This document shows, piece after piece, positions 11,247 to 14,728 of a DNA stretch of 64,000 nucleotides. Source of the stretch: Thermoanaerobacteraceae bacterium (lineage in GTDB: Bacteria > Bacillota > JADQBR01); NCBI GenBank assembly GCA_017656305.1, contig JACDOG010000004.1:62001-126000 (forward strand), given 5' to 3'. The notes beneath the pieces were generated by a model, which had not been told where the DNA came from, did not search any database, and worked only from the letters and a program-made list of their open reading frames with translations. Position 1 is the stretch's first letter. The number at the start of each line of letters is the position of its first letter. The position numbers and the translations under genes were made by a program.

Positions 11247-11813
11247 TCAACTGCGGGTACGCTTTACAGAAGTGACCTTATAATATAAGGCCCTGTCCAA
11301 CATACACTCGCTGATCAACAGGATTAACCCAATGTCCATAATAATATCGCCAATGCTAAACCAGCCCAATTTACCGTGTAGCGGATGCTTTATTTTAATA
11401 ACATCACCCAAAAAAGTCAACCGGGAACTATCTGTCAGCAAACTGTGAATGCCGTCCCTACCAGTTTTTAACTCCTGGATAACCTCTACCGGCATTCTGG
11501 TTACTGCAACAGGCATCGTACCGAAGTTCGCGGCTATGACTATAAAGTTCAATAAAATTCCCAACCCGATGATTTTTATTCCGGCAGACTTGAAATTAAA
11601 CATTAAAAAAGCAAATAAAAAAACGTATGATAATACGTGAATAAATCCGGTCCATGGTCCCAGAATATCCTGCAGCCAGCTGAGACTGAACTGCAAAATG
11701 ATGGCAACAAAAACAGTCCAGGCATGGGCAAAATGAACTTCCTTCAAGTTGCTCAATCTGCCACCCCGTATGTAACCAACAATAATGCCCAGTACAGCCG
11801 CTTCAATAAACAT
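11247..11813 (-). CDS. DUF5317 family membrane protein
   Basis: The 188-residue protein has five or six hydrophobic segments and the family signature near the N-terminus, IRGGRLSNLKEVHFAHAW. A conserved middle segment reads NFGTMPVAVTRMP. DUF5317 proteins occur in Firmicutes and Actinobacteria and have no established function. The start overlaps the end of the HD-GYP gene by 11 bp, so the two are translationally coupled, which hints at a shared membrane or signalling context. No terminator is evident before secA. Confidence 0.7.
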   Translation of the reverse strand: MFIEAAVLGIIVGYIRGGRLSNLKEVHFAHAWTVFVAIILQFSLSWLQDILGPWTGFIHVLSYVFLFAFLMFNFKSAGIKIIGLGILLNFIVIAANFGTMPVAVTRMPVEVIQELKTGRDGIHSLLTDSSRLTFLGDVIKIKHPLHGKLGWFSIGDIIMDIGLILLISECMLDRALYYKVTSVKRTRS

Positions 11814-13152
11814 CCTTTATCCCTCCTTCCGCCACCAGCATTTCTCCTGTGTCCTTTGCCAATTCCTCGTACCTGAGCTCCCTTTCGTCACCAACTTTAT
11901 TCACTTCACACCTGATATCCGGGAAGACCTTGATGAAAGCGTCCACCACCTTGGGGTCAAACTGGCTCCCCGAGCAGGCCAGCACTTCCTTATAGGCCTC
12001 CACATAAGTGAGCGCCGGCCGGTAGGGCCGGTCAGAAGTCATGGCGTCAAAGGCATCAGCCACGGCAATAATCCGGGCGCCCAGCGGGATGTCTTCGCCG
12101 GCCAGGCCGCGGGGATACCCTTTGCCATCCCACCGCTCGTGATGGTGCAGGATATTCTCATAGCCATCTTCAAGAAACTTAATCCCCTCAATGATATTCG
12201 CCCCCACTTCCGGATGTTTTTTCATCAGAGCAAATTCCTCACTGTCCAACCGCCCCGGCTTATTAAGAACTTTTTCGGAAATACCAATTTTCCCAGTATC
12301 ATGCAGCAAGGCAGCAAATTTTAACTGTTCAATACGTTCCTCAGGTAAACCCATATGCTGGGCCAATATTTCCGCATACCGCGCAACACGTTCCGAATGG
12401 CCGCTAGTATACTTATCTTTGGCATCGATGGCCGCTGCCAAGCTTTCAATACTTTGTCGGTAAGCCTGACGCATTCCAATATACATTTGAAAAGACCTAC
12501 GGGCTAAAAAAAGAGGAATTGTAAATAAAAGTACTCCTATAATTCCTAATTCTTTATAAATGACAGAAGTAAAAAAACCCAAAAATAGTAATGCTATAAA
12601 ATTATCAACTTCCCATTTATGATTTTCTCGCCAAATACGTAGTAAAGAGTTTTTTTCCACCAAAGCAACTATCATCATTACGAAACAAATATTTAAAAAC
12701 ATACATAATAGCATTATAATTGCTAAAGAACTATAATATGCCCAACCACTATTTCCCCACAAATACAATAACTTTTGAAACGTTAAACTTGAAGCCGCAA
12801 TTGTTATAATAACTTGAGAAACATTAAAGGCTATTTTAATTAGATTTTGTTGTTTATCAAATAGTAAAGCTGTAAAAAACGCTAACGCGGTAACTATTGT
12901 TGCATGTATCGGCGGAAACAAAATAATATTGGTAAACCAAATTGCCAAGCCTACAGATACTTTAGCACCTCTTGGCAACGTCACCGGCAATAACTCTGCA
13001 AATAATGTAATTACATAAAATACCGCTAAATCAATTAAATTTATTTTAACCACATGAGTTTCACTAGTAGTAAATAAATATAATAGCATTACTATAGCCA
13101 AAAGAATTATTATTACTATATAAATCTTAGCTCTTAGTGGTAGTTTGTCCAT
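11803..13152 (-). CDS. Membrane-anchored HD-GYP domain protein (probable cyclic di-GMP phosphodiesterase)
   Basis: The 449-residue protein has a sensor half of about seven transmembrane segments (residues 8-215), a short linker helix, and an HD-GYP domain. The catalytic HD is in LLHDTGKIG (about residue 284) and the GYP motif in WDGKGYPRGL (about 346), with the usual HHHERWDG metal ligands between them. HD-GYP domains hydrolyse cyclic di-GMP to GMP or pGpG. The ribosome site is GAGGTG. The DNA for the membrane half (about 12480-13152) is only about 28% G+C in sampled lines, against 50-60% for the catalytic half, with the change at the domain boundary. A small peptide and a structured leader lie directly upstream. 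Confidence 0.92.
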   Translation of the reverse strand: MDKLPLRAKIYIVIIILLAIVMLLYLFTTSETHVVKINLIDLAVFYVITLFAELLPVTLPRGAKVSVGLAIWFTNIILFPPIHATIVTALAFFTALLFDKQQNLIKIAFNVSQVIITIAASSLTFQKLLYLWGNSGWAYYSSLAIIMLLCMFLNICFVMMIVALVEKNSLLRIWRENHKWEVDNFIALLFLGFFTSVIYKELGIIGVLLFTIPLFLARRSFQMYIGMRQAYRQSIESLAAAIDAKDKYTSGHSERVARYAEILAQHMGLPEERIEQLKFAALLHDTGKIGISEKVLNKPGRLDSEEFALMKKHPEVGANIIEGIKFLEDGYENILHHHERWDGKGYPRGLAGEDIPLGARIIAVADAFDAMTSDRPYRPALTYVEAYKEVLACSGSQFDPKVVDAFIKVFPDIRCEVNKVGDERELRYEELAKDTGEMLVAEGGIKDVY

Positions 13153-13173
13153 AGATTTGTCACCTCAAAAGAA

Positions 13174-13392
13174 ATTTGAGCCGACAGGATTGGTAATTAA
13201 GCCCATCTATTTCCGGCGCCACCAGCTAAAATTAAAGTCATCAGAGTAATCAAAATAGCGATTAATCTAGCCATTAGTAAATACCCCCTTCACGGTAAAT
13301 CTCCGCAGCACCGCTCAGCCACGGGAAATACCGCTCCGCTCTGGGCTGTTTGCTCCGCTAATGGTGACCCAAAAACACCTGTCGGCTCAAAT
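13174..13392 (-). promoter_or_regulatory. Long-range-paired leader upstream of the HD-GYP gene
   Basis: On the minus strand a 15-base segment ATTTGAGCCGACAGG (13392-13378) is the exact complement of CCTGTCGGCTCAAAT (13188-13174), enclosing about 190 bases. The second arm ends a few bases before the ribosome site of the HD-GYP gene. Inside are a small hairpin (GGTG...CACC), a G+C-rich stretch with repeated GCGGAGC/GAGCGG motifs, and a 25-codon open reading frame. This looks like a structured 5' leader closed by a long P1-like stem. I could not match it to a known riboswitch class. Confidence 0.55.
13197..13274 (-). CDS. 25-residue hydrophobic peptide upstream of HD-GYP gene
   Basis: The frame starts at an ATG behind GAAGGGGGTATTTACTA, a strong ribosome site, and encodes MARLIAILITLMTLILAGG followed by AGNRWA and a stop. 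It is one transmembrane helix with a Gly-Gly-Ala-Gly-Asn-Arg-Trp-Ala tail. It sits inside the long-range-paired leader, 44 bp upstream of the membrane HD-GYP gene. It could be a leader peptide controlling the downstream gene or a small membrane partner of the sensor. It is too short for a reliable homology call; the ribosome site and sensible composition are the support. Confidence 0.55.
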   Translation of the reverse strand: MARLIAILITLMTLILAGGAGNRWA

Positions 13393-14197: not shown

Positions 14198-14728
14198 CTA
14201 AAACTCCGGCTCAATCAAGCCGTAATTACCGTCTTTTCTACGGTAAACCACATTAACCTGTTTCGTCTCCGCATTGGAAAATACGAAAAAGTTATGCCCC
14301 AACAGGTTCATCTGCATGATAGCCTCATCCACGGGCATAGGCTTGATGGCAAATCGCTTCGTTCTGAGAATCTTGGGTTCTTCTTCCTCCTCTACACCAT
14401 CGTCTCCCTGTGCTGCCAGTTCCCTGAGGCTGTTGCTGCGAATTTTCTTGGCCAGACGCGTTTTATGTTTTCTTATCTGTTTTTCCAATTTATCAATTAC
14501 CATATCCACCGAGCTGTACATATCCCCGGATTCTTCCTCACCCCTGAGGATGATACCGTCTACGGGGATAGTCACCTCTACGCGATGCCGGTCTTTTTCT
14601 ACAGATAAGGTAACTTGCGCTTCTTCCAGCTTGTCAAAGTACTTCTCTAGTTTCCCAATCCTTTTCTCTACATGCTGGCGCAGAGCATTGGTGACCTCAA
14701 TCTGCTTGCCGCGTACCTTGACATTCAT
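14198..14728 (-). CDS. hpf: Ribosome hibernation promoting factor, long form
   Basis: The 176-residue protein has the S30AE ribosome-binding domain (residues 1-100; MNVKVRGKQIEVTNALRQHV) and a C-terminal dimerisation domain (about 120-176; RTKRFAIKPMPVDEAIMQM, NVVYRRKDGNYGLIEP), joined by an acidic linker. Long HPF alone makes inactive 100S ribosome dimers in stationary phase and stress. A sigma-H-type promoter lies about 35 bp upstream, which agrees with control of the Bacillus homologue YvyD by sigma-H. The gene stands alone between terminators. Confidence 0.95.
   Translation of the reverse strand: MNVKVRGKQIEVTNALRQHVEKRIGKLEKYFDKLEEAQVTLSVEKDRHRVEVTIPVDGIILRGEEESGDMYSSVDMVIDKLEKQIRKHKTRLAKKIRSNSLRELAAQGDDGVEEEEEPKILRTKRFAIKPMPVDEAIMQMNLLGHNFFVFSNAETKQVNVVYRRKDGNYGLIEPEF

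Follow-up and report, generated by a model that had tools for sequence, protein, structure and literature searches.

In the RRNPPA pairs (Phr/Rap, PapR/PlcR and SHP/Rgg) a small propeptide gene adjoins the gene for its receptor, and the propeptide combines an N-terminal export part with a C-terminal active peptide (PMC9765709, PMC3150281). The locus described here comes from a 64-kb stretch, called the window below, of a Thermoanaerobacteraceae genome, and resembles these pairs in that a small propeptide-type gene, whose predicted product has an export-signal-like N-terminus and a C-terminal tail, lies beside the gene for a putative receptor. The receptors of the RRNPPA pairs are cytoplasmic TPR regulators, whereas the gene next door here encodes a membrane MASE9-HD-GYP phosphodiesterase, and a conserved closed RNA domain surrounds the putative propeptide gene. 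Given that the adjacent gene codes for an HD-GYP protein in 69/69 contexts and not for a TPR regulator, the locus is not a member of the RRNPPA group. HD-GYP proteins are also known in quorum sensing from RpfC/RpfG, in which a separate kinase perceives the fatty acid DSF as the signal. Control of an HD-GYP cyclic di-GMP (c-di-GMP) phosphodiesterase by a cell-cell signal is likewise proposed here, but the signal would be a peptide and the HD-GYP protein a membrane protein of the one-component type.

The c-di-GMP riboswitches (GEMM) share with this locus a structured leader ahead of a c-di-GMP gene; however, the present leader has other motifs and contains an ORF, and the c-di-GMP riboswitch models of Rfam gave no match in it even at E-values up to 5. 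A known riboswitch or other Rfam RNA was rejected because the window has no match to Rfam at gathering thresholds; the sole match in eight relatives was an unrelated 6S RNA, and permissive thresholds yielded chance-level matches only. Neither the leader RNA nor the micropeptide that it encodes is present in the copies of Rfam, Pfam and NCBIfam searched. In hok-type closed mRNAs and in RNAIII/hld, pairing between the 5' and 3' parts encloses a small hydrophobic ORF, as the long-range pairing does here. Unlike hok, the locus occurs roughly once per genome and keeps a conserved synteny with one partner gene, showing no sign of a toxin system, and the multicopy or mobile character of hok-like type I toxins was not seen. 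Repeated NAG triplets with 2-nt spacers are reminiscent of TRAP leader RNAs, although the repeats are few here. TRAP (MtrB) is encoded in the window's genome but went undetected in many genomes whose leader is perfect (e.g. G020, G026 and G039), and it was therefore rejected as the general binder of these repeats. No described system that combines these features is known to us, and searches of open-licence papers found none; each of the principles has precedent.

Organization and distribution of the locus

The micropeptide-bearing leader is encoded on the minus strand between the HD-GYP gene and its conserved upstream neighbour, here termed UP (Table 1). The preliminary description, made from the letters of the window, had noted 15-base arms pairing exactly about 190 bases apart, a repetitive core between them and a 25-codon ORF preceded by a good ribosome site. 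Checking the sequence bore this out: the arms (P1) are exact complements 189 nt apart, the repetitive core that they enclose is rich in AGCGGAGC (units AGCGGAGC/GAGCGGAGCGG), and AAGGGGG is the ribosome site of the ORF. The folded leader has an energy of -88.5 kcal/mol (z = -4.05), and none of 200 shuffles was that low.

Table 1. Features of the locus, with positions in the window
Feature	Position	Strand	Sequence and remarks
P1 5' arm	13378-13392	-	ATTTGAGCCGACAGG; begins about 11 nt past the stop codon of UP
First AGCNNAGC repeat	13352-13361	-	TTAGCGGAGC; read from the sequence
Second AGCNNAGC repeat	13329-13341	-	GAGCGGAGCGGTA; most conserved motif, apparently unpaired
P3 hairpin	13301-13325	-	CCCGTGGC-UGAGCGGU-GCTGCGG; loop (U/G)AGCGG
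UACCG and micropeptide ribosome site	13284-13297	-	TACCGTGAAGGGGG; pairs with the core (P2) in a subset of relatives
Micropeptide ORF, 25 codons	13197-13274	-	MARLIAILITLMTLILAGGAGNRWA; MARLIAILITLMTLILAGGA↓GNRWA, the arrow marking a possible signal peptidase I site
P1 3' arm	13174-13188	-	CCTGTCGGCTCAAAT; 8 nt past the micropeptide stop codon
HD-GYP ribosome site	13160-13166	-	GAGGTGA; just outside P1
MASE9-HD-GYP phosphodiesterase	11803-13152	-	HD, HHE and GYP motifs intact; membrane half predicted to be ECF S-component-like (RibU)
UP, 217 aa	13406-14059	-	conserved upstream neighbour; dispensable for the leader

A peptide profile of 25 positions (A1), run on 300 genomes of Bacillota in the broad sense, matched 77 of them, from about 50 families and almost always once per genome; the few weakest matches are spurious or truncated at the end of a contig. 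Searches centred on Lachnospiraceae and on Pelosinus gave identical genomes and coordinates, which is why the phylum is taken as Bacillota in this wide sense. Among the 74 contexts fetched 69 were usable, three at contig ends, one false match and one without a clear start having been left out. The preliminary description had suggested that the peptide be sought beside other HD-GYP genes; an HD-GYP homologue lies directly downstream of it in every one of the 69. UP is found upstream in 67/68 contexts, and SecA often follows. Micropeptide-like ORFs also precede HD-GYP orthologues in other families, and the same type of locus, with P1, an inner hairpin between AGCNNAGC repeats and an ORF of 20-30 aa, is seen in about 70 genomes of about 50 families of Bacillota in the broad sense. 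No peptide was detected in 61 genomes of Synergistota by a profile search that had no positive control there. MASE9-HD-GYP paralogues without a peptide occur as well (L251 and L255-L258). Several loci of f12 and its relatives (L079, L095, L096, L099, L105, L108, L117 and L121) show at least two tandem HD-GYP genes per leader and peptide, and the profile detected no further peptide in the genomes concerned.

In four families UP lies downstream of the HD-GYP gene and the leader still precedes HD-GYP, on which grounds both UP as an obligatory leader-binding partner and P1 as a bridge coupling the translation of UP and HD-GYP were rejected. Loci that lack HD-GYP and have secA directly after UP show neither leader nor peptide; this too argues against UP as the partner of the leader, and indicates that the peptide goes with HD-GYP and not with UP. 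UP belongs to no Pfam family and was found in 128/300 genomes. Its predicted fold consists of an abbab domain and a C-terminal half like the LeuA allosteric domain, with R54, R86, N205 and R206 strictly conserved; UP is possibly an amino-acid sensor. A gene likely to encode the ribosome hibernation factor HPF (14198-14728, minus strand) precedes UP in many loci, and the cluster thus sits between hpf and secA.

A covarying long-range stem

The P1 arms are the sole exact 15-mer inverted repeat with a spacing of 100-260 nt in the window (64 kb); the mean number of such repeats in Markov-1 simulations was 0.0. P1 was sought in relatives as gapless helices with swapped-partner controls, unlimited duplex folding having proved too permissive. 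Since the arms were chosen as the best helices, the fair control for all pairing figures is the swapped-partner test, in which the choice is equally free. The best gapless helix between the leader and the region past the ORF reaches -20 kcal/mol or lower in 63/68 loci; the helices of L094, L098 and L106 are probably chance pairings, which leaves a P1 equivalent in about 60 of the 68. The median energy of P1 with its own partner is -25.5, versus -15.7 with the 3' region swapped from other species, and in 23 loci no foreign 3' partner matches the strength of the native pairing. The helix search found no P1 in f17 or at several other loci.

The arm sequences are wholly different among lineages, with AGCCGACAGG/CCTGTCGGCT in the window and, for instance, TACCCAAACCT/AGGTTTGGGTA, GGTTACTGTGGCCGG/CCGGCCACAGTAACC, AAAAATATCTGATGGCAT/ATGCCATCAGATATTTTT and GGGGGGGCG/CGCCCCCCC elsewhere. 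At 12 anchored positions of 56 distinct arm pairs 89% of cells are paired, falling to 25-47% when the partner is slid along. Covariation of the arms, which had been set beforehand as a test of the proposal, is strong: compensatory changes on both sides are seen at 11/12 of these positions, with further covariation in the inner hairpin P3.

The closing arm had been placed beside the ribosome site of the HD-GYP gene, and it does end 7 nt before GAGGTGA (median 11 nt in relatives), but it neither covers nor masks that site, and an overlap is seen in only 1/56 relatives. With a length of 10-17 bp in most relatives, reaching 23 bp at most, and a position between the UP stop codon and the HD-GYP ribosome site, P1 could in principle be a double-stranded processing site, at which cleavage would release a stable ORF-carrying RNA and give the HD-GYP mRNA a new 5' terminus. 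Many P1 stems are, however, near or below the usual length of an RNase III substrate, and this explanation, which we regard as very improbable, leaves the conservation of the peptide unaccounted for.

The RNA core

Variants of the AGCNNAGC repeat in relatives include AGCGAAGC, AGCGGAGC, AGCUGAGC and AGCUUAGC. In an alignment of 34 cores (A4) AGCGNAGCG is invariant and is followed by the P3 hairpin with a (U)AGCGG loop, in which 5/6 pairs show compensatory changes across the 34 sequences. This invariance is partly a matter of choice, since the aligned cores were selected for the tandem repeat, the strict form of which occurs in 38/69 loci; those outside the alignment have single or diverged copies of AGCNNAGC. 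A covariance model of the core (R1) matched 44/300 genomes exactly once each, and every match compared adjoins a peptide or UP match; hence, these comparisons gave no sign of the core elsewhere. CsrA was rejected as a binder, judging from the sequence, because GGA is not conserved (AGCGAAGCG, AGCGUAGCG and AGCUUAGC).

The stretch between the repeats and the hairpin often pairs with the ribosome site and start of the micropeptide ORF to form a helix, P2 (e.g. UUUUAUAGCC/GGCUAUAAAA, GGAAAAACC/GGUUUUUCC and GAACAGCCC/GGGCUGUUU). P2 is statistically supported in a subset of loci only, 16 of the 68 falling in the top 5% relative to swapped partners where 3.4 were expected. In the f62 and f39-type leaders, whose repeats read AGCUGAGC or AGCUUAGC, a local hairpin rather than P2 pairs there (CCUCCC...GGGAGG and CCUUCGUU...AACGAAGG).

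The micropeptide as a probable minimal signal peptide with a variable tail

The micropeptide ORF of relatives codes for 20-30 aa and is under purifying selection. Its conservation had been the other test set beforehand, and the result was equally clear, with pN/pS values of 0.25-0.41 between close pairs and matches in 77/300 genomes. The most conserved part is LVLAGGA, for which each of the four Gly and the four Ala codons is used, and it is typically followed by a tail of the form [N/S/G][F/Y/W][K/R]W, as in ...LVLAGGA↓NFKW. Sequence comparison establishes the covariation of P1 and P3, the selection on the peptide, the pairing of the genes and the conservation of the motifs, and we hold it virtually certain that the RNA and the peptide are real and conserved.

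A lysine is conserved 11 residues ahead of LVLAGGA, so that the hydrophobic stretch is only 10-11 residues long, which is short for a membrane span and right for a signal peptide. The micropeptides also display the other features of signal peptidase I substrates, namely a basic n-region, a hydrophobic h-region and small residues at -3 and -1 relative to the start of the tail, the last in 68/68 canonical examples. Against this reading, the signal part is short at 19-20 residues, glycine at -3 is accepted by signal peptidase I without being preferred, and the hydrophobic part of the f19 peptides is weak (MKKVVKVLVSLVGAGYLKW). On balance, a minimal signal peptide with a tail of 4-7 residues is probably a better description of the micropeptide than a membrane anchor. 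Thus, what had been called a membrane peptide is indeed a short hydrophobic peptide, but one that is probably an exported propeptide; export itself we consider rather likely.

Diverged lineages supply the strongest argument for the signal-peptide reading, as they have textbook signal peptides at the same place (...ALA↓DSTRWG, ...AFA↓DTFLMK). The four families with HD-GYP ahead of UP still have an ORF before HD-GYP (MKKLWIAILTGLFTILSSLSTFA↓SLSRW, MKKWYVAILTGLITILSTLSVLA↓ESTHWN, MKKWYVTILTGLLTFASTIAALA↓DTVHWR and MKKLYLLVTTALITMAATISALA↓DSTRWG); the corresponding ORFs are MKKFALAGFVAAIMTLLMSVMAFA↓DTFLVK and similar forms (MKKF...AFA↓DTFLMK) in f62/f73, and ...ALA↓DTARFRWPR in f17. Clear A-x-A signal peptides are seen in the counterparts from f39, f101, f111, f63, f62 and f17. 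From their position, architecture and shared basic-Trp tail (f62/f73 excepted) we infer that these ORFs, which give no significant alignment, are true homologues and not replacements.

The same evidence bears on the idea that the micropeptide remains uncleaved as a single-pass protein in the membrane, where it would serve the MASE9-HD-GYP protein as a subunit or, like the MgrB type, as a regulator, its level being set by the RNA. Such a role would explain why LVLAGGA, whose small residues could pack on another helix, is strongly conserved, and why the gene constantly adjoins one for a membrane protein. Against this stand the 10-11 hydrophobic residues left by the conserved lysine, the A-x-A counterparts just described and the f19 peptides, in which the hydrophobic stretch is weak and barely hydrophobic at all (MKKVVKVLVSLVGAGYLKW); we therefore consider such a subunit unlikely.

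Two loci (L247 and L259) encode the peptide before HD-GYP without the RNA domain, and the peptide is thus a product and not just a part of the RNA. This persistence also weighs against a purely cis-acting leader peptide, in which a ribosome translating or stalling on the ORF would rearrange the RNA and control HD-GYP translation, the peptide having no later role. Such a role would fit the location of the ORF within a covarying RNA domain, the conservation of the C-terminal residues and the placement of the P1 3' arm at a median of 12 nt past the stop codon in relatives, where the edge of a terminating ribosome would lie. Nevertheless, the tails differ by lineage (NFKW, SFRI, DTFLMK, DSTRWG) while the signal-peptide features persist, and the window's leader has no terminator and a P1 that does not mask the HD-GYP ribosome site; we judge a leader peptide of this kind to be improbable. 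A Trp-codon attenuator was rejected because Trp is not universal in the tails.

One genome (G147) has two copies of the peptide (L131 and L259), with the tail GRKW; at L259, which lacks the RNA core, a terminator-like hairpin (GCTGGCCCCGCGAGGGCCAGTTTTATTT) separates the peptide from the HD-GYP gene. In the sister genomes G006 and G052 (L084 and L098) the leader and the first 20 peptide codons are nearly identical, and the tail (STRWV versus NARW) and 3' region differ, which suggests recombination swapping tails along with the start of the receptor.

The MASE9-HD-GYP protein

The product of the HD-GYP gene contains MASE9 and HD-GYP domains, both above the Pfam cut-off; among homologues MASE9 was detected in 39/44 and HD_5 in 44/44. 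Residues H284-D285, H337-H338-E339, G345 and P347 are invariant and Y346 is conserved in at least 90% of them. Given the conservation of these catalytic residues, the enzymes are predicted to be active. A structure model of the protein (pLDDT 91) matches solved HD-GYP domains, and a Foldseek comparison of its membrane half retrieved RibU with a probability of 1.00, a TM-score of 0.70 to the target and an rmsd of 3.5 over 168 columns, at an E-value of only 0.05; FolT and other ECF S components are weaker matches. The part concerned, residues 1-220, is the MASE9 domain, and this likeness may apply to MASE9 proteins in general. MASE9 was found in no relevant paper of the open-licence literature searched. 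ECF S components bind small extracellular ligands, and a fold of this kind, if correctly modelled, suits a tetra- to heptapeptide ligand.

Proposed function

In light of these contextual and structural connections, we propose that the locus is a peptide-receptor pair acting in c-di-GMP signalling, in which an exported peptide acts with an adjacent phosphodiesterase receptor and the translation of the peptide is set by a closed RNA domain, a proposal for and against which we find the case evenly balanced. The micropeptide (a short basic start, 10-11 hydrophobic residues, a small-x-small end and a tail of 4-7 residues) would be translated and then exported by Sec, and signal peptidase I would probably cut after AGGA. 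The released tail could be bound from the outside by the S-component-like MASE9 domain, and this binding would change the phosphodiesterase activity of the HD-GYP domain; that the tail is the ligand of the adjacent receptor is, on the predicted fold, a conjecture that could equally go either way. The RNA between the neighbouring genes would form a closed domain in which P1 brackets the propeptide ORF, with the receptor ribosome site outside it, and in a subset of genomes an inner helix may switch to mask the propeptide ribosome site. In such an arrangement, translation of the propeptide could be set apart from that of the receptor. The conserved, apparently unpaired AGCNNAGC and loop AGCGG motifs are the probable site of action of some protein or ligand, and insulation, stability or processing are candidate roles for P1. 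The preliminary description had offered two alternatives, a peptide-sensor pair or a cis-regulator of a new class within c-di-GMP signalling; the covariation, the peptide conservation and the lack of a match in the libraries support this proposal, with both ideas probably applying together.

To our knowledge, the ligands of the membrane sensor domains of most c-di-GMP enzymes are unknown, and the locus provides candidate MASE9 ligands that could be synthesised for tens of species and directly tested. Two further additions are an RNA architecture in which a covarying long-range stem encloses a putative propeptide ORF, and a gene family for 20-30 aa products that lies outside the RNA and protein libraries searched; roughly one in four of the genomes sampled from this large phylum has them. 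More tentatively, and with somewhat less confidence than in the pair itself, we suggest that it might represent a widespread, ancient and undescribed autocrine system, in which tetra- to heptapeptides derived from signal-peptide-only genes would be the ligands of MASE9 domains, S-component-like receptors coupled directly to the hydrolysis of c-di-GMP, and the dosage of these peptides would be governed by closed RNA domains of a new class that contain the propeptide gene.
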